A stretch of 28,432 bases of DNA from positions 1 to 28,432 of the IMG/VR virus record IMGVR_UViG_3300045242_000074, one strand, 5' to 3'. Numbering within the stretch: position 1 is the stretch's first letter; the number at the start of each line of letters is the position of its first letter. Both the position numbers and the translations under genes were made by a program. Shown here piece after piece: positions 11,987 through 28,367 of this stretch. Below the pieces are notes generated by a model. That model worked only from the letters and a program-made list of their open reading frames with translations, did not search any database and was not told where the DNA came from. This DNA comes from a virus.

Positions 11987-12451
11987 ATGGCGGTTCTTAC
12001 CAAGGGCACTTAGGTGTATTTCATCGATCCCGTAAATCATGCGGTGATCGAACTGTATTGCGTCAAAACGCTTAATCCGGGTGGCGCGCAGCGCGATCAG
12101 ATCGAGACGACTTGCCTTAGCGCAAACTCTCGCTCTTACCTTCCGGGCCTTCCCACACCGGGCTAGGCATCGCTCGAAATCGACTTCGATCCGTCGCAGT
12201 CTAGCCACAAGCGTTTCCATGAGCTGTATGTATCCGGCGATACGATCCACTTCGCCGTTGGCTGGTCGGATGGCACCGTAACGCCGCATGCGAATACGTC
12301 GGGCGACTTCGTTCTGCCTACCTCGCGTTCGTGGCTGCACTTCGATGGATTCATCCGTGATTGCCCGTTTAATTTCGCGGTCAATGCAGTGGTTGCATCT
12401 GCTGTTTCGATCCAGGTTTCGGCCTTCCCAGACTTGTTCGTTAAGTCTTGA
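11987..12451 (+). CDS. Major tail tube protein (TAG = Gln)
   Basis: 154 residues, hexamer-forming tube subunit. Segments: TKGT-TAG-VYFIDP near the N-terminus, VKTLNPGGAQRDQIETTCL, GLPTPG-TAG-ASLEIDFDP, then HELYVSGDTIHFAVGWSDG and a C-terminal PFNFAVNAVVASAVSIQVS. The order (asparagine/proline loop, ETTCL, GLxxPGxAxxxIxFDP) is that of lambda-V-like tail tubes. TAGs are codons 9 and 60. Start ATG 11987 has GAGGAT at 11975-11980 and the same ATATCAAAATGGC start region as the capsid gene, both abundant proteins. Stop TGA overlaps the next gene. Confidence 0.92.
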
Positions 12452-12930
12452 CCGAAGCGGTAGACATTCGCGGGCTTGAAGGGGCGCTTGATATTCTCAA
12501 GCGCCTACCGGCTGAGCTTGTCTCAAGTAAGGGCGGTGTCGTCCTTACCGGATTGCGCAAGGGAGCGACGCTCGTGCGCAAGGCATGGCAGGCGGAAGTT
12601 CAGCGGATGGTGGATGAGCCGAATATCGCAGGACACTACAAAGATATCGGCTTGTACAAAAAATCAATCGGTGCAAAGCGCGTGCGCAATCCGAAGAAGT
12701 ATGGATGTGACGAAATGGTGCGCGTTCGCGTGAAAGCGGGCGCGTACCCCGATGGCGATAGGGTGGCGATGGTTGCGGGCATTTTGGAGCACGGCTACGA
12801 GCATATGGTTGCCAAGGCTCCGTTCCGCAAAGCCACGGATACCATCGGGCAGACCGTTGCGGATGCAGTAGTGAAGGGCATCAATGACGGAATCGAAAAG
12901 GTAATAAAGCAACTCGATCCAACGGCATAA
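12448..12930 (+). CDS. HK97 gp10-like tail component, TTG start
   Basis: 160 residues, no TAG. EGALDILKRLPAEL, RKGATLVRKAWQAEV, the central VRVRVKAGAYPDG and the late GILEHGYEHMVAKAPFRKA match the HK97 gp10/minor tail family (EhGtxxmxAxPFlrpA). It probably sits at the head-tail joint. The only start that fits the frame well is TTG 12448, overlapping the tube stop (TTGA), so translational coupling is likely. Usually this gene precedes the tail tube; here it follows it. Stop is TAA. Confidence 0.85.
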   Translation: MTEAVDIRGLEGALDILKRLPAELVSSKGGVVLTGLRKGATLVRKAWQAEVQRMVDEPNIAGHYKDIGLYKKSIGAKRVRNPKKYGCDEMVRVRVKAGAYPDGDRVAMVAGILEHGYEHMVAKAPFRKATDTIGQTVADAVVKGINDGIEKVIKQLDPTA

Positions 12931-13031
12931 CCCAAACGGCAAAGCGGTTACAAACGGGCGCGCGGCCTCTACGCTGTTCGCCGTGGCGCAAGTCGCGCGA
13001 CCCGTCCCGCATCAAAATAGGTAGAACGAAA

Positions 13032-13691: not shown

Positions 13692-16600
13692 ATGGCAACG
13701 ATTGTATTTGATCTAAAGGCCGTCACTGGCGCTTTCGTTACAGACTTTCAACGCGCTGCAAAGGAGGCGCAGAAGTCATTGGGCGAAATTAAGGATGCCG
13801 CACGCGAGACGGGCGCGGGCATCCTTGAGTCATTTACAGGACTGAGTACATCGCAGCTAACAGTTGCGGCGCTCTCGGCGGGCTTTGGCGAACTGATTAA
13901 AAAGTCAATCGAGCTTGGCGATCAAGTTAACAAGATGTCGCAGAAAATTGGCGTTAGCGTAGAAACGCTATCTGCCCTGCGTGCGTAGGCGCAGCTATCT
14001 GATGTGAGCTTCGATGATCTTGGCTCCGCAATGGGTAAGTTTGCCAAGACCCAGGCGGCAGCTGCAGGCGGCGCTAAATAGCAATCGGAAGCATTCGCCG
14101 CGATGGGCGTTGCGCTCAAGGATGCGGAAGGACATTTGCGCAGTCAAAATGACGTGCTCGGCGACGTTGCTAAAAAGTTTGCGTCCTACAAAGACTCGAC
14201 GGAAAAAACGGCGCTTGCATAGGTGCTGTTCGGAAAGTCTGGCAAGGAACTAATCCCACTGCTAAATGAGCTTGGCGAAAAGGGATTTGAAGAAGTCACG
14301 AAACAGGCCAAGGCATACAATCTTGTTATCGGCGCAGACCAAGCAAGGGCGTCCTAGGAGTTCCACGAAAACATCACGCGGCTAAGTCAGGCCACTACGG
14401 GCTTTGGTCTGGCCGTCACGAAATAGCTGCTACCCAGCCTTGTGAATCTATCCTCGCAAATGGCGGAAGCCGCTAAGACTTCAGATGGTTACGCGGATAG
14501 CGCAAGTGGTGCTGTGTCTGTTATTAAATCATTCGTTCTTGGCTTGATCGCAGCCAAGGAAACAATCGCGGGACTGGTAAACGTTATCGCCGCAGTATTT
14601 GATGCGGTCAAAACGACGTTTGATGCATCCGGTCAATTTATTGCGGCATGGTCGCAGATGGTTGCCAAAAATATATAGGCTGCCTTCCGTTTTGATTATT
14701 CTGCAATATCCGCGAATAAGGACGCCTTCATAAAACAGGCCGGAGAAATTGCTGGCACGTTTACGCACAACATGGATGTCGCGCGCGGCGCTATGAGTTC
14801 CGGCGTTACTGACTCTGTTGGCAATGTCAAAAAAGCATACGATGCGCTTTTCGGCACGTTCTCCAATGTGATTTCAGGAGTTAAGACTGTATCCAAAGCG
14901 CACGAGGAAGGCGTAGCGCCGCTGCTCAAGAATGCGGATGCAGCGAAGGAGGCGACGAAAGCAGCCGAAAAGCTTGCGGAAATGTTCAATAAGGACGGCG
15001 AGACGCTAGCTTCCATTCAGTCCAAACTAAATCCCGTACAAAAAATATATAGCGAATACGTCAAGGGCATCGCGGAGGCGAATACCGCTTATCAAAAAGA
15101 AATAGAGCTTGCAAAAAAAGCAGGCTTGGGCGATGCTGCATTGGGCCAAGCTAAAGAAAACTTGATTGCAAAAAATAAGGCGCTGCTGGATGTTGAAAAG
15201 GCTCAGTAGGCGGAATTTATAAAGCAGAATGATGTAGTTGGAAAATATCTTGAGAAAATCGCAGACGATCAGGCGCTAATTGGGCTTACTGACCGACAAA
15301 AAGAAATTACCAAGGCAGTTCAGGACTTAACTCGCGAATGGGAAAAGGATACGCCTGCTGTCAAGGCGTGGCTGGCTTAGATGGGCGTTATTGATCCAAC
15401 GTCCGAAGCTGGCAAGCTCAAGATTTAGGAAGTAACTGGCGCGCTGTATGACAATAAGCAAGCCTTCGATCTTTCGCAGCAGGCTGCGCGCGAATGGCAA
15501 GGCATCTGGTCGCAATCCTTCGATAAGATACTAAACACCAGCGGCAATATCTGGACGAAGCTAAAATCCGGATTCAAAGACCTTGTAAATTCGATCATCC
15601 AGTATTTCGAGAAGCTCGCGATTGTCAATCCGATCCTAAACGCCATGTTTGGCGGTTCGGTCGGATTCTCTATATTGCCAACGCTTGCCAATGCTGCGGG
15701 CGGGACTGCGCTAAATCAGACTGGTGCAGCAATTGCGCAATCCTATATTGACCCGAGTAGCGGCAATGTCATTGGCGGCGCTGCGGGCGGCGCTGGCGGC
15801 ATTGGTGGCCTAACGTCACCGTCAACTTGGGTGGGGCTTGGGAAAAACCTTTTCAGCGGGTTTAGTTCGCTATGGAGCGGCACGTCAGGCGGTATTGCAT
15901 CATTCGGCAGCATTCCAGGCGGCGGGTCATATGCGTTGACAGCCCCTGGCGCAGCCAGTCCGTTCGGGTATGGTGGCTACGGCTCAGGGTTCGGGTAGGC
16001 GCTCGGCGTCGCTGGCGGCATTTATGCTGGCTATAACGAGTATAAGAACGCTGGCGGCGGTCTGGCGGGCGCAGCTGGTGGGCTAGCCTATGGAGCCGGT
16101 ACATACTTCGCGGGCGCTGGCATCGCTACTGCGGCTGCAACAGGCAGCATTGCTGCTGGACTCTCTGCAATCCCCGTTGTGGGCTGGATCGCAATTGCAG
16201 CCATGCTCATTGACAAGTTCAGCGGCGGCAAGCTATTTGGCACAGCATTCAAGCCGACCGGCAACGTTGCCGAGAATGTGAGCATCGGCGCGAATGGCGC
16301 TTCGGTCACAAACTCTATTGAAGAAAAGAAAAATCAGGCTTTGTTCGCAGGCCACAAATGGCGATGGGAAGATCTCGCCGCCACGCCGGAACAGATGCAG
16401 TTCGCGGATTCCGTAACCAAGGCCATGAATCAGGTGGCGCAGTCTGCGGCTACCGCGCTTGGGCATGATGTGGGCGATCTTGTCTCTGGCGCGTTCAAAC
16501 AGGTTACGGATAAATCCGGCAAGGTCACATCGCAAATTTCTACGGTACTCGGCAAGCAATACACCGAGGCCATAGACGATTTCGTCAAGCGCATGCAGGC

Positions 16601-23711: not shown

Positions 23712-23840
23712 TTACGATAGATTGTATTCCTCAAAAAAAGTCAACCATTCCGCAATTCTCAGCGCGTCGGCTCGACCTTGGCACTTGGCGTCCAGTTCCG
23801 CTTTCTCGTCCACTACTCGTTGTTGGAAATCTTGCAACAT
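23712..23840 (-). CDS. Small phage protein with QRVVDEKAELD motif
   Basis: 42 residues beginning MLQDFQQRVVDEKAELDAKC and then a predicted helix with ALRIAEWLTFFEEYNL. The QRVVDEKAELD segment is shared by small early proteins of many Proteobacterial phages; function unknown. Its ATG overlaps the TGA of the pentapeptide gene (ATGA), showing that it belongs to the same operon. Stop is TAA. Confidence 0.75.
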   Translation of the reverse strand: MLQDFQQRVVDEKAELDAKCQGRADALRIAEWLTFFEEYNLS

Positions 23841-24748
23841 CACGCACCCCTCCCGGCTGTGCCGTGCTGTGTTTGCTCGGCAGCACAACGCCGAATATCT
23901 TCGCGCGCTGCTTCGTTTGAGGCGAAGAAGTGAGGCCGATAGCCAACGGCGGCGCGGTAGATCATTGCGCCAGCACGTTCTGGCCCATATTTCTTTTCTA
24001 GCGATTGACCGGCATCGCCCGCAAGGTGAATCGCCCACCCTGCGCGACAATGCGTCGTGCCGCATGCTCCGCTCTCTCCGTGCCATGAGTTCATCTGTAA
24101 CTCGCCGCCGCCCGTGATGGCCGCGAGAATCTTCGCGTCGATCTGTTCGATCACTGGCACATCTGGATTGCGCTCGCGAAATCTGACCGCCGCAGTAGCA
24201 CGACGTGCTGCGCGATCCTCCAGCGTGATAGCGCGCTGGTACGGTTCGGCGGGATTCGTGGCCGTAGTGCCGTCAGGCACGTTCCTGGCGCCCGCAAGGT
24301 AGGCGCCCGCAAGGTCAGCGCCCGCAAGGTCAGCGCCCGCAAGGTCAGCGCGCGCAAGGTAGGCGTCCTCAAGGTAGGCGCCCGCAAGGTTGGCGCGCGC
24401 AAGGTAGGCGTCCTCAAGGTAGGCGCCCGCAAGGTAGGCGCCCGCAAGGTCAGCGCCCGCAAGGTAGGCGCCCGCAAGGTCAGCGCCCGCAAGGTCAGCG
24501 CGCTCAAGGTAGGCGCCCGCAAGGTAGGCGCCCGCAAGGTCAGCGCCCGCAAGGTCAGCGCCCGCAAGGTCAGCGCGCGCAAGGTAGGCGTCCTCAAGGT
24601 AGGCGTCCGCAAGGTAGGCGCCCGCCTTAATCGCCTTCTTCACCGCGAAACCTAGTTGCAGTGAGTACGACTTACCGGAAAATTCAGCCGACAGTTCGCA
24701 CTCAAACTGCACGGCACCACTAAAGCGGTTTTTGATTTGGAAGATCAC
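23840..24748 (-). CDS. Pentapeptide-repeat protein, GTG start
   Basis: 302 residues. N-terminal 37 residues begin IFQIKNRFSGAVQFECELSA, typical of phage pentapeptide proteins. Residues about 38-153 are pentapeptide repeats of the form A(Y/D)LAx, predicted to form a right-handed quadrilateral beta helix. The C-terminal part has IDAKILAAITGGGELQMNSW, CGTTHCRAGWAIHLAGDAG and FFASNEAAREDIRRC, a recurring phage C-terminal module. Start GTG 24748 is chosen because it overlaps the previous TGA (GTGA) and has AGGAG upstream; the longer ATG at 24790 would overlap the previous gene by 46 bases. Function not known. No internal TAG. Confidence 0.88.
   Translation of the reverse strand: MIFQIKNRFSGAVQFECELSAEFSGKSYSLQLGFAVKKAIKAGAYLADAYLEDAYLARADLAGADLAGADLAGAYLAGAYLERADLAGADLAGAYLAGADLAGAYLAGAYLEDAYLARANLAGAYLEDAYLARADLAGADLAGADLAGAYLAGARNVPDGTTATNPAEPYQRAITLEDRAARRATAAVRFRERNPDVPVIEQIDAKILAAITGGGELQMNSWHGESGACGTTHCRAGWAIHLAGDAGQSLEKKYGPERAGAMIYRAAVGYRPHFFASNEAAREDIRRCAAEQTQHGTAGRGA
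24290..24640 (-). repeat. 15-base tandem repeat encoding pentapeptides
   Basis: About 23 units of roughly GCCCGCAAGGT(A/C)(A/G)GC (plus strand), lying wholly within the pentapeptide gene. Since 15 is a multiple of three, all frames stay open and produce false ORFs. Unit variants recur in blocks, which suggests copy-number change by slippage or recombination. Confidence 0.9.
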
Positions 24749-24927
24749 TTCGATTCTCCTGTTGTTTGTGTGTTCTCTCGTGCGCCCCAACGCTTTGTAT
24801 ACTCTTCGACTATTCTGTCAGCGATAGCGCAGGCGGCAATGGACTGGTAATCGTTGTACGAGACGTAGTTGCCGTTCGCGTGTTCGACAATGCCGTCTGT
24901 GCATTCGTGGTATCGCTGCACGGTCAT
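24745..24927 (-). CDS. Small early hypothetical protein
   Basis: 60 residues: TVQRYHECTDGIVEHANGNYV, then DYQSIAACAIADRIVEEYTK and a polar tail. Not recognised. ATG 24927 is served by the GGAGG that overlaps the SSB TAG stop, and the end overlaps the pentapeptide GTG (GTGA). No membrane segment. Confidence 0.7.
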   Translation of the reverse strand: MTVQRYHECTDGIVEHANGNYVSYNDYQSIAACAIADRIVEEYTKRWGARENTQTTGESK

Positions 24928-24938
24928 GCTGCCTCCTA
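24924..24938 (-). promoter_or_regulatory. SSB TAG stop overlapping a Shine-Dalgarno, with TGA backup
   Basis: On the minus strand the sequence is TTC TAG GAG GCA GCA TGA: the TAG stop of SSB shares bases with an AGGAGG ribosome-binding site, and an in-frame TGA follows three codons later, overlapping the ATG of the next gene. If TAG were read as Gln the product would gain only Gln-Glu-Ala-Ala after DDIPF. Confidence 0.8.
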
Positions 24939-25304
24939 GAACGGGATATCGTCTGAAAATTCCTCTTGCGGCGCTGGCGCAGGCTTCGGCTTATCCTGGC
25001 TCGGCACGTCGCGCTTCGGTGCAAGTAGATCGACGTTCGCAACCCGCAGCGTCACATACGTTTTCCCGTCATGCTCGCGCGTGCCAAGTTCGCCAGTGAC
25101 GCCGAGCTTGTCGCCCTTGCATATGTACTCGCCGACCTTCGCGCCGCGCTCGTCCCACATAGAACAGTCAAGCCATATGGTTTGCCTGTTGTCGCCGTAG
25201 CCGCTGTCGATTGCCAACGCCCATGACGTTACGGCTTTGCCGCTAGTCGTGTGACGTGTGATTGCATCGCGGCCAATGCGTCCGATCCCGGTAAAAATAT
25301 TCAT
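24936..25304 (-). CDS. ssb: Single-stranded DNA-binding protein, ends with TAG
   Basis: 122 residues. OB-fold start MNIFTGIGRIGRDAITRHTT, strand WALAIDSGYGDNRQTIWLDC, then GDKLGVTGELGTREHDGKTY, a short Pro/Lys-rich linker and the acidic tip EEFSDDIPF. The tip is the partner-binding end of bacterial SSBs and normally carries the C-terminus, so the TAG right after Phe must work as a stop for the normal protein. ATG overlaps the previous TGA (ATGA). It belongs with the annealase and exonuclease upstream. Confidence 0.95.
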   Translation of the reverse strand: MNIFTGIGRIGRDAITRHTTSGKAVTSWALAIDSGYGDNRQTIWLDCSMWDERGAKVGEYICKGDKLGVTGELGTREHDGKTYVTLRVANVDLLAPKRDVPSQDKPKPAPAPQEEFSDDIPF

Positions 25305-25381
25305 GCTTGTGGCACCTTCAGTTCTGCTTGTATTAGGCTTTTGTGAACACTTGCCAGTCGTTCTATAATTTTAATATTCAT
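25301..25381 (-). CDS. Very small early protein
   Basis: 26 residues beginning MNIKIIERLASVHKSLIQAE. It starts with an ATG overlapping the exonuclease TGA and its own TGA overlaps the SSB ATG, so it is framed by two ATGA junctions, which supports a real gene despite its size. Amphipathic helix; function unknown. Confidence 0.6.
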   Translation of the reverse strand: MNIKIIERLASVHKSLIQAELKVPQA

Positions 25382-26013
25382 GCTGCAATCCTCTCTGCTG
25401 GTGAATACTTAGCCACAATCACGTCAAGCTCGCCGTTGAAATCTGCAACCGCTTGCGCGAGTTTGGCAATATAGGCTTCGTCGCGTTCTGCGCGGAAAAC
25501 GAATAGGGGCAACTTCGGCCAATAGGAAACGAAGTCGCAGAAGTCACGGCCTGAAATCCATAATTGGCCTTGAGCCTGGGCGACGTGTTCTGGCGGCAAT
25601 CGCCGCTCGCCTTCCAACAATTCAATCTGCAAATGCGGTAGCTTGGTTTTTATTTCCAGAAGTCCGTTATCTCCTACCGTGCTATCTGGACTTGCGCCAG
25701 CGCGACCTCGCCGCATGAATCCAACCGGCTGCGGGTCGGAGTCCGTTTGAAAGGCGTAGAACTGCCGCGCCTCATCCTCCATCGCATGTCCGCGTTCGGT
25801 ATGCTCGTTTCCTTCCCATGTCGGCACCTTTTCGCCAGTGATGACCTGGGCCGCAAGGGTTAGCAGATATTTCCGGCGCGTGATGCTTTCGCCGCCGCCT
25901 TTACCCTTAGCTAATACGGTCGCGAACTGGCTTGCGGTTGGAATGCCGCGACGCACGGCAAACCATTCATCAGAGTTTTGCGGGCAATCGTGTAGCAGCA
26001 CAATATCGCTCAC
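25378..26013 (-). CDS. YqaJ-type viral recombinase (exonuclease)
   Basis: 211 residues, lambda exonuclease-like fold that resects DNA ends for recombination. N-terminal NSDEWFAVRRGIPTASQFAT (substrate region), then NEHTERGHAMEDEARQFY, the catalytic block SPDSTVGDNGLLEIKTK (Asp 110, Glu 120, Lys 122) and EHVAQAQGQLWISG, a helix matching the family Gln-rich motif. GTG start overlaps the annealase TGA (GTGA). Works with the ERF annealase and SSB in this operon. No internal TAG; stop TGA. Confidence 0.93.
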   Translation of the reverse strand: MSDIVLLHDCPQNSDEWFAVRRGIPTASQFATVLAKGKGGGESITRRKYLLTLAAQVITGEKVPTWEGNEHTERGHAMEDEARQFYAFQTDSDPQPVGFMRRGRAGASPDSTVGDNGLLEIKTKLPHLQIELLEGERRLPPEHVAQAQGQLWISGRDFCDFVSYWPKLPLFVFRAERDEAYIAKLAQAVADFNGELDVIVAKYSPAERIAA

Positions 26014-26732
26014 CTCGCTTTCTCCTTTGAGCGCAGCGCGGCCAGTGCCATGTCATAGGCTTTTGCTGGCAGCTTGGCGAGGCTTTCGACCTTGAGAAAT
26101 TTAAGGAATTTAGCCTCATTCGCTCCGGTCGATTCCATCCATTCGCGCAATGTCACTAGCTGCGCATCGCTCACAAATTCGACCGATGCCGCATATGCGT
26201 CGTCGTCCTCGCCGTGACTTGTCAGGTTCAACAGTGCGCCAGCGGTATAACGCTTGCCATAGCTCACGCTTGACGCAACGGCCTGTACGGCATTCTTATT
26301 GCCGGACGCATCAGCAGGCAGCTTGATCGTCGTGCGCTCGCTGTGCCCGCTACGATGCGACAGAACGGCGGTTACGCTAATGCCTTCGGAAAAGTCAGTG
26401 CGGAAGGAAAGGGCGAAACCGTGCTGCGTCAGGATCGGCTTGATCGCGGTGTTAATGTCCTCCCAAAGCGCGAATGAATAGCGCATCTTTCCGTCAACCG
26501 TGGCTTTGCCGCGTTCGCTGATTGCTGGCAGCTTGCCCTGCATGTCGGCAAGCGAGCTAGAGAATGCAGACTCCGCACGCCTTGACTCGATGCGCTCATA
26601 CATCGCCATCAATCGCTCCATCTTCTCCACGTCCGTATTCGGATCGGATGCCGCGCGTGAGATAACTGCTAACAATGTGGATTCTTCGGCATGGATCGCC
26701 GGGGTATTTTCAACTTTTGCCACTGCGTTCAT
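26010..26732 (-). CDS. ERF-family single-strand annealing protein
   Basis: 240 residues. ERF features: RRAESAFSSSLADMQGKLP, then VDGKMRYSFALWEDINTAIK, PILTQHGFALSFR, VTAVLSHRSGHSERTTI and AVASSVSYGKRYTAGALLNL followed by GEDDDA. The C-terminal part is a helical extension. The ATG at 26732 (MNAVAKVENTP) has a perfect GGAGGT site just upstream and overlaps the previous TGA (ATGA); a longer frame from 26795 lacks support. Pairs complementary single strands after exonuclease action. No internal TAG. Confidence 0.94.
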   Translation of the reverse strand: MNAVAKVENTPAIHAEESTLLAVISRAASDPNTDVEKMERLMAMYERIESRRAESAFSSSLADMQGKLPAISERGKATVDGKMRYSFALWEDINTAIKPILTQHGFALSFRTDFSEGISVTAVLSHRSGHSERTTIKLPADASGNKNAVQAVASSVSYGKRYTAGALLNLTSHGEDDDAYAASVEFVSDAQLVTLREWMESTGANEAKFLKFLKVESLAKLPAKAYDMALAALRSKEKAR

Positions 26733-26941
26733 TTCGCTACCTCCGATCCCTGCGCGGTTTCCGCCGCGCTCGGTGCTACATAACTCGTGAAGCAATCCCG
26801 CTTACTGCGCCACCGCTCGATACGCTCATGCGGCATCATCGGGCGCAGTGATTCGTTCTTGCCGTTCCACCTGGCGATAACGCAGCGCGCTCCGAATGCG
26901 GCGAGTGTTTTGCCTATCGCTTGGTCACGTTGTGCGGTCAT
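26729..26941 (-). CDS. Small early hypothetical protein
   Basis: 70 residues: TAQRDQAIGKTLAAFGARCV, WNGKNESLRPMMPHERIERW, then polar. Not recognised. It is linked by ATGA overlaps to the overprinted gene before it (TGA 26938-26940) and to the annealase after it. No membrane segment or known motif. Confidence 0.65.
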   Translation of the reverse strand: MTAQRDQAIGKTLAAFGARCVIARWNGKNESLRPMMPHERIERWRSKRDCFTSYVAPSAAETAQGSEVAK

Positions 26942-27864
26942 GCTGCTTTACTCCGTGAGTCCGAGTCTGCGAAGAAGCACGACAATTGCTGTTGCAGCGC
27001 ATAGCGGTACAACGCCATTGCCGCAGAGTCGCAACTGATGGCTTCGATGTTGGTCCACGCCACAGGAATCCCCATCAACCAGCACACAAAGGCCGGATTC
27101 AATCGCGGGCGCGAGGTCTGGACGTTCTGCGAGGATAGTTCCCCATCGCTCGCTCTCTCGATCCGGCGCGAAAAGGCTTCCGCCTGCCAATTCAGCAGCA
27201 TGTCCATCCGACTCCTGCCGTCTGCTCTCGTCACTGCGCTGCCCACCCCATTGGCGATGCTCGCTGTTGGCGTTGCCCAACGTGCCGCAGCCTCGCGCAG
27301 ATTCATGCCCATGTAGCCATTGCTGTACGTGCTGGTGTTTGTGTCTGGCGTAGGCCACAACGAACACGCGTTCGCGCAACTGGCTGGCCCCCACTTTTTC
27401 CGCAGATAGCATTCCCCATTCCGCAGCGAACCCCATTTCGGCCAAGTCTGCGAGTACGGGGCCGAATCCACCGGAAGAAAGGAGTCCTGGCACGTTTTCG
27501 AGTACCACGAGCCATGCACCAGACTCGAGAATAATTCGTGCGATGTCGGGCCATATCCAGCGCTCGTCGTCAGTGCCTTTGCGCTTTCCTGCTTGGCTAT
27601 GCGGCTGGCACGGGAAGCCCGCAGTGATGCAATCCACCGATCCGCGCCAAGCTGTAGCGTCGAAGGTTGTAAGGTCAGACCAGATAGGCGCGCCATCCAG
27701 CGATTGCGCTTCCATGCGAGCCGCAAGGAGCGCAGCCGCATAGACTTCCCTTTCCACGTAACAGGCAACACGGCTTTTCCATCCGACATGCTCGCAAGCA
27801 GCAGCAAGCCCGATTTCAATTCCGCCATATCCGGTACACAGCGCGATGGTAGATAGATCCACAT
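26938..27864 (-). CDS. Gene overprinted on the cytosine methyltransferase (LNPxFVxWLMGxP family)
   Basis: 308 residues in another frame of the methyltransferase, almost fully overlapping it. Family landmarks: TWPKWGSLRNGECYLRKKWG (about residues 140-159), SLWPTPDTNTS (168-178), ARWATPTAS (194-202) and RLNPAFVCWLMGIPVAWT (254-271), ending in DSRSKAA. This order (W-x-x-x-G-x-x-R-x-G, WPTP blocks, LNPxFVxWLMGxPxxWT) is that of a protein often found with phage DNA methyltransferases. ATG 27864 lies 4 bases after the methyltransferase GTG. Its TGA overlaps the ATG of the next gene (ATGA), as in the rest of the operon. Function unknown. Confidence 0.7.
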   Translation of the reverse strand: MWIYLPSRCVPDMAELKSGLLLLASMSDGKAVLPVTWKGKSMRLRSLRLAWKRNRWMARLSGLTLQPSTLQLGADRWIASLRASRASRIAKQESAKALTTSAGYGPTSHELFSSLVHGSWYSKTCQDSFLPVDSAPYSQTWPKWGSLRNGECYLRKKWGPASCANACSLWPTPDTNTSTYSNGYMGMNLREAAARWATPTASIANGVGSAVTRADGRSRMDMLLNWQAEAFSRRIERASDGELSSQNVQTSRPRLNPAFVCWLMGIPVAWTNIEAISCDSAAMALYRYALQQQLSCFFADSDSRSKAA

Positions 27865-27868
27865 TCAC
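26948..27868 (-). CDS. C5-cytosine DNA methyltransferase
   Basis: 306 residues. Motif I ALCTGYGGIEIGL (about 9-21), motif IV GFPCQPHS with catalytic Cys 87, motif VI LENVPG (123-128), motif VIII QLRERVFVV (163-171), variable target region, and motif X RLCGNGVVP (280-288). It methylates cytosine in DNA, probably to protect phage DNA from restriction or to mark it. GTG 27868 overlaps the preceding TGA (GTGA); a longer ATG start at 27931 would intrude 64 bases into the upstream gene. Stop TAA. The second half is also coded in another frame by the overprinted gene. Confidence 0.95.
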   Translation of the reverse strand: MNVDLSTIALCTGYGGIEIGLAAACEHVGWKSRVACYVEREVYAAALLAARMEAQSLDGAPIWSDLTTFDATAWRGSVDCITAGFPCQPHSQAGKRKGTDDERWIWPDIARIILESGAWLVVLENVPGLLSSGGFGPVLADLAEMGFAAEWGMLSAEKVGASQLRERVFVVAYARHKHQHVQQWLHGHESARGCGTLGNANSEHRQWGGQRSDESRRQESDGHAAELAGGSLFAPDRESERWGTILAERPDLAPAIESGLCVLVDGDSCGVDQHRSHQLRLCGNGVVPLCAATAIVVLLRRLGLTE

Positions 27869-28011
27869 GCGACCATCCACCGCAGCGCATCCCCAAGCCA
27901 CCACACCGCGCACCACAGCGCAGCGCCGCACACGAAACCCACGACTGCTTGCACGACTTTGTGCGCGTCCTCGATTGCGGACTCAAACTGTTCTAGGCGG
28001 GAATAGTTCAT
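27865..28011 (-). CDS. Small single-span membrane protein
   Basis: 48 residues: polar N-terminal half NYSRLEQFESAIEDAHKV, then a hydrophobic segment VVQAVVGFVCGAALWCAVWW and a short tail. Likely an inner membrane protein of unknown function. ATG 28011 overlaps the previous TGA (ATGA) and its TGA overlaps the methyltransferase GTG. An upstream ATG at 28020 is also in frame. Confidence 0.68.
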   Translation of the reverse strand: MNYSRLEQFESAIEDAHKVVQAVVGFVCGAALWCAVWWLGDALRWMVA

Positions 28012-28367
28012 GCCGCGCATTCCACAAATTCGCCGGAGTAGTTTAGCTGATACCAGGTATCTGCCTTGATGCCGTTCTCGCCGACCTTCGACGCGCGGAT
28101 ATGCCGAATGCTCCCATCGACGCCGCGATTGACTAGAACAATAGCCGCAGTCTTGGATGCGCGAGCCCTGCAATAAAGTCCGGTCGCCATCGCGACGGAA
28201 TGCAAACCAGTCGCCGATGCAGCGCCACTCTCTCCAGTCGCCGATGCAGTGCCCCTCCAACCAGTCGCCGATGCAGCACCCCTCTCACCAGTCGCCGATG
28301 CAGCGCCACTCCAACCAGTCGCCGATGCAGCGCCCCTCAAACCAGTCGCCGATGCAGCGCCACTCAC
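28008..28367 (-). CDS. Protein with 9-residue repeats and C-terminal DUF7666-like domain
   Basis: 119 residues from GTG 28367. An in-frame TGA near the window edge (about 28400) closes the frame upstream. The first half is a G-A-A-S-A-T-G-x-x repeat. The second half, AIVLVNRGVDGSIRHIRASK, then VGENGIKADTWYQLNYSGEFVE, matches a phage domain (DUF7666-like) usually preceded by such repeats. The exact start in the repeats is uncertain. TGA overlaps the next ATG. Function unknown. Confidence 0.65.
   Translation of the reverse strand: MSGAASATGLRGAASATGWSGAASATGERGAASATGWRGTASATGESGAASATGLHSVAMATGLYCRARASKTAAIVLVNRGVDGSIRHIRASKVGENGIKADTWYQLNYSGEFVECAA

Follow-up and report, generated by a model that had tools for sequence, protein, structure and literature searches.

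The closest described counterparts of the system treated here are the code 15 phages, which read the codon TAG as glutamine (Gln) in their late genes. Borges and co-workers are said to have proposed in 2022 that recoding delays the late proteins. The division of a phage genome into an early and a late code is already in print: the part of Peters et al. 2022 (PMC9523058) drawn on here describes an early/late code split and reports TAG-to-Gln peptides, none of which came from regions predicted with code 11 and none of which appeared in the fraction expected to contain early proteins. Late genes are likewise the recoded ones in the gut phages of PMC10607447, as far as the part of that paper used here goes.

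The window analysed in this work covers a linear virus record in full (28,432 bases). Its late block, which extends from terminase to tail on the plus strand (48–23545), comprises 23 genes with 38 in-frame TAG codons as Gln. The early block occupies the minus strand (23840–27931) and contains a pentapeptide-repeat gene, a 60-aa gene, a single-strand DNA-binding protein (SSB) gene, genes for a YqaJ nuclease and an ERF annealing protein, a 70-aa gene, and a methyltransferase gene, none of these seven counted genes having a sense TAG. The SSB gene ends in TAG, and the nature of this ending is the subject of the present analysis.

Recoding of TAG in the late genes

Late-gene recoding of TAG to Gln is real, and the earlier note on this DNA was right about it. 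TAG accounts for 38 of the 328 Gln-type codons in the late window genes and for none of 45 in the early ones (Fisher p 0.008), and it is found inside 17 of the 23 late plus-strand genes. Taken as a residue, it yields long continuous plus-strand frames such as that of the tape measure, with 1605 codons and ten TAGs. In the 56-kb relative G001, which together with G002 and G003 represents the records behind loci L002, L004 and L007, the 23 late genes have TAG at 64 of their 341 Gln-type codons and the 27 early genes at none of 162 (p 2e-12). The gene lists of both genomes were picked by hand and leave out several small ORFs, the G001 gene at 12120–13019, the gene at 14156–14725 and the ORFs at 26–28 kb. 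The early count excludes the small minus-strand ORFs 23712–23840, 27865–28260 and 28008–28367 of the window and a second frame over its methyltransferase gene; G001 43269–43805, which overlaps the methyltransferase gene there, was not counted either.

Gln is also the commonest residue aligned with TAG. Of 48 columns with TAG in G001 but another codon in the window, the window shows Gln in 18 and, as the next most frequent residue, Lys in 7; the corresponding value for G003 is 22 of 31. The reverse direction is weaker, G001 having Gln in 6 of the 21 non-TAG columns at window TAGs. In a six-row alignment, a 106-residue G001 protein has TAG at a position where all five annotated-phage sequences have Gln, and G003 also has TAG there; at the second TAG of this protein, four of the five sequences have His and one has Gln. 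A simple ORF-cover measure (not Prodigal), in which a rise of over 10% was taken to indicate recoding, gave TAG=Q/code-11 coverage ratios of 1.167 for the window, 1.194 for G001 and 1.282 for G003. In-frame TAGs occur in six of 21 terminase relatives: four in each of L002–L005 and L007 (67% identity) and two in L019; the other 15 lack them. A search of bacterial genomes with TerL returned relatives of at most 51% identity and named neither a host nor a recoded prophage, and annotated phages yielded no match to the 868-aa tail protein.

The TAG codons are unevenly spread along the late genes. The initial 15% of the gene holds 15 of 38 TAGs in the window, where an even spread would give 5.7, and 15 of 63 in G001, where it would give 9.5. 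Such crowding near gene starts would act as an effective early brake on translation.

In G001, G002, G003, L271 and L277, the terminase genes are preceded on the late strand by a tRNA gene with a CTA anticodon. G001 and G002 look near-identical where compared and are therefore not independent. In G001, some 1.8 kb separate this tRNA gene from the small terminase gene downstream of it, and the equivalent spot would be just beyond the left end of the window; a tRNA gene search of the window, a fragment beginning at terS, found none. ARAGORN labels the CTA tRNA as tRNA-Pyl from its anticodon, and its charging with Gln is putative. The recoded relatives have several other tRNAs, and G001 (L105 14169–14600, minus strand) and G002 encode a permuted tmRNA (Rfam RF04321, 112.5 bits), which ARAGORN also detects. 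The TAG bias and the tRNA of the relatives support the proposal, likewise made in the earlier note, of a standard early and a recoded late code, the principle of which is already published.

Stops in the early genes

The seven early window genes lack internal TAG, as the earlier note stated, and end in TGA (five), TAA (one) and TAG (the SSB gene). None of 46 late genes (23 in the window, 23 in G001) ends in TAG, versus one of seven early window genes and one of 27 early G001 genes; these counts (2/34 versus 0/46) are too sparse to prove a difference. The G001 case is a repressor-like gene (45038–45541; weak repressor matches) with a 22-codon extension beyond its TAG. Its protein has no match among annotated phages, so that this stop is unconfirmed. 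Since only two SSBs were found in the recoded clade, the case for a TAG stop there consists of the window SSB and this unconfirmed gene.

One further candidate was dropped. The 80-codon "MIFLQ" gene (G001 35188–35430) was considered as a conserved TAG stop until a third relative, L287, was compared: its TAG stands one codon further on, and the total length up to a common TAA site is unchanged, which fits a stop or Gln. Of the 15 genes counted in the middle block of G001, this one alone ends in TAG, and this block was not used as evidence. The cluster at G001 35158–36097 (minus strand), also present in L110 and L287, has one gene with TAG at an invariant Gln, and a nearby co-oriented gene with TAG 8–9 codons before a shared TAA. 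Two standard-frame "TAG-ended" ORFs of G001 (35230–35481 and 46757–46966) were rejected, as they look like shadow frames.

Other features of the early side of the window may be mentioned. At 26938–27931 (minus strand), two long frames of one strand coincide over nearly their entire length; they encode a cytosine methyltransferase (P0001) and a WPTP/FVCWLMG protein, each with a match among the PHROGs methyltransferase families. A comparable pair is present in G001 at 43183–44238, and its second frame (43269–43805) ends in TAG. The pentapeptide-repeat gene contains a long run of near-identical repeats (24300–24630; PF00805), and short repeats of the SATGxRGAA type lie at the end of the window (28008–28367, minus strand), with a weak collagen-repeat match below the cut-off.

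The SSB gene and its junction with the next gene

The SSB gene (24936–25304, minus strand) has 122 codons. Its product matches the SSB family of Pfam (PF00436, E 1.7e-14, 54.2 bits against a cut-off of 26) and phrog_44, "single strand DNA binding protein" (E 5.7e-24). SSB proteins bind their partners through the terminal Phe of an acidic tip. On the minus strand, the sequence from 24950 to 24915 reads GATATCCCGTTCTAGGAGGCAGCATGACCGTGCAGC. As described in the earlier note, the tip DDIPF directly precedes TAG: the gene ends SDDIPF-TAG (24938–24936), and GAG, GCA, GCA and TGA (24926–24924) follow. The tip is terminal only if TAG stops, and read-through would append Gln-Glu-Ala-Ala (QEAA) before TGA.

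The TAG, most likely the SSB stop, sits within TAGGAGG. It shares two bases with the hexamer AGGAGG (24937–24932), apparently a ribosome-binding site that serves the next gene; the ATG of this gene (24927–24925) follows after four bases. This next gene (24745–24927, minus strand) has 60 codons and no assigned function, with a weak match to phrog_23083 (E 5e-4). An overlap of stop, ribosome-binding site and ATGA start is a routine coupling layout in compact operons. With an ATGA start whose ATG comes 11 bases after the T of TAG, a TGA lands automatically in the SSB frame. Thus the supposed safety stop, TGA, belongs to the start of that downstream gene. Of 95 genes in the window and G001, 10 have another in-frame TAA or TGA no more than four codons behind their stop, and a single instance therefore does not call for selection. 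Both TAG as the SSB stop and a second stop within four codons are at background frequency. The position of TAG directly after the tip is not random, because the tip usually coincides with the end of the protein.

Related SSB proteins

A single-sequence search of viral contigs with the SSB found nothing, and an alignment query gave matches at 100 loci, 98 of them complete, which were reduced to 80 non-redundant related SSBs. Their genes end in TGA (55), TAA (17) or TAG (8). The tip is the end of the protein in 49 of the 80; another 30 have 1–12 sense-coded residues beyond it, and the tip is indistinct in L127, perhaps owing to a frameshift. The eight TAG-ended proteins all end at the tip, and no conserved extension was found after them. 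In four of these eight (L113, L168, L151 and L024), the stop is part of TAGGAG or TAGGGG, with ATG 11–12 nt after its T. Across the 80, the stop overlaps a ribosome-binding site in five of eight TAG cases versus 21 of 72 others, a difference that is not significant (Fisher p 0.10). Six of the records with TAG-ended SSBs, including L113 and L168, had TAG=Q/code-11 coverage ratios of 0.99–1.04 and are standard-code phages; L023, L024 and L151 are too short for this measure. The TerL family PF03354 was found in none of the nine records with TAG-ended SSBs, which does not inform on their code.

Residues beyond the tip are present in L111, L116, L121, L131, L132, L133, L141, L164, L182 and others. 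Many of these tails fall into recurring types (EWR/EFR, RGxW-like and RxxSYY-like), a pattern that suggests a second C-terminal motif. The closest SSB, that of L116 (72% identity over 97 residues), continues past the tip: DIPFAPPITRRSWSVL. The acidic tip of phage SSBs hence frequently lies inside the protein and not at its end, a point of importance wherever DDIPF is used to prove a C-terminus. A literature search on the DDIPF tip of phage SSBs found no papers; absence from print is not claimed. The earlier note had concluded from the terminal position of the tip that TAG must be a stop. A stop is indeed the most likely reading, but the tails in 30 of 80 related SSBs weaken the "must", and they equally weaken the view of a short tail as something special that masks the tip.

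Interpretation of the SSB ending

The ending is very probably an ordinary stop in an early gene of a late-recoded phage, with TAG and TGA both resulting from the gene junction. According to this explanation, the lineage reads TAG as Gln in its late genes (packaging, head, tail and lysis), most likely by means of a phage-encoded tRNA with the anticodon CTA. The opposite-strand early block, including the SSB gene, would be made under the ordinary code, as its lack of sense TAG implies, and TAG would be a plain stop there. This stop runs into AGGAGG, from which ribosomes would start on the downstream gene, and the TGA is read from the ATG-A start of that gene, in frame by happenstance. The suppressor is presumably scarce during SSB synthesis, and any QEAA-tailed SSB made later would probably be of no consequence. 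A stop is favoured by three points: TAG stands where most relatives stop, the counted early genes have no sense TAG, and standard-code phages have similar junctions.

If TAG were instead sense and coded for Gln, the gene would end at TGA 24924–24926 and the protein would carry a QEAA tail past the tip. This is improbable, and it keeps some weight through the tails common among related SSBs, that of the closest relative included, and through the layout of the operon: the SSB gene would then overlap the next gene by 4 nt, as neighbouring genes do at 26729–26732, 26010–26013 and 24745–24748. The G after the SSB TAG is, moreover, the commonest base after sense TAGs in the window (19 of 38). Against it stand the complete lack of TAG among the Gln-type codons of the counted early genes in both genomes, the location of TAG immediately behind the tip, the very point at which 49 of 80 related SSBs end, and the lack of any QEAA-like tail among those 80. 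The SSB of G001, 58% identical and the sole other one found in the recoded clade, terminates with DDRPPF-TAA and has no backup stop.

This last observation also bears on the proposal of the earlier note that TAG plus TGA is a selected arrangement, in which TAG stops early and is suppressed late, giving a tip-masked form with switched partners and a tail limited by TGA. The note had suggested looking for relatives that keep TAG with a nearby TGA, and had named an SSB ending in TAA without backup as evidence to the contrary, which is what G001 has. Some late read-through of SSB mRNA is plausible, the recoding and the tRNA of the relatives being real. Nevertheless, selection for such a switch is very unlikely: backup stops are found after about 10% of genes, the TGA is accounted for by the ATGA start, post-tip residues are common in related phage SSBs, and no stable structure follows the TAG (fold z -0.94). 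It is just as doubtful that two SSB forms exist, one with an exposed tip early and one ending in DDIPFQEAA as the CTA tRNA builds up, with altered partner recruitment; if they did, the code switch would also retune replication.

A different, historical account is compatible with the ordinary-stop explanation and has a modest chance of being true. The early block may have been acquired from a standard-code phage, in which case the lack of TAG codons and the TAG stop would reflect history and not selection. The identity of the window SSB to that of the recoded G001 (58%) is no higher than to SSBs of other phages (L112 60%, L111 58%), and G001 is absent from the 80 kept YqaJ relatives, so the two early blocks seem to differ. 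Yet the 27 early genes of G001 likewise have no sense TAG, and the split is thus common to two different early blocks.

Comparison with known systems

The SSB is like bacterial and phage SSBs in its family match (PF00436; phrog_44) and in the DDIPF tip before the stop. What sets it apart from usual SSBs is that it ends in TAG in a lineage that reads TAG as Gln elsewhere, while many related phage SSBs extend beyond the tip. The junction TAGGAGG-N4-ATGA is like those of compact operons, the sole difference being the reassignment of TAG elsewhere in the genome, and it illustrates that a suggestive "double stop" can come from an ordinary gene junction.

With the code 15 phages, the genome shares TAG as Gln in the late genes, a CTA tRNA (in its relatives) and an early region compatible with the standard code. 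Unlike the gut phages treated in the published work used here, the lineage has a smaller genome (56 kb in the relative G001) and an HK97-type terminase. The SSB ending is thus most likely ordinary, and the general idea of an early and a late code is correct but already known. This work adds to it a small recoded phage lineage, and one genome in which TAG most likely serves as an early stop and as late Gln.
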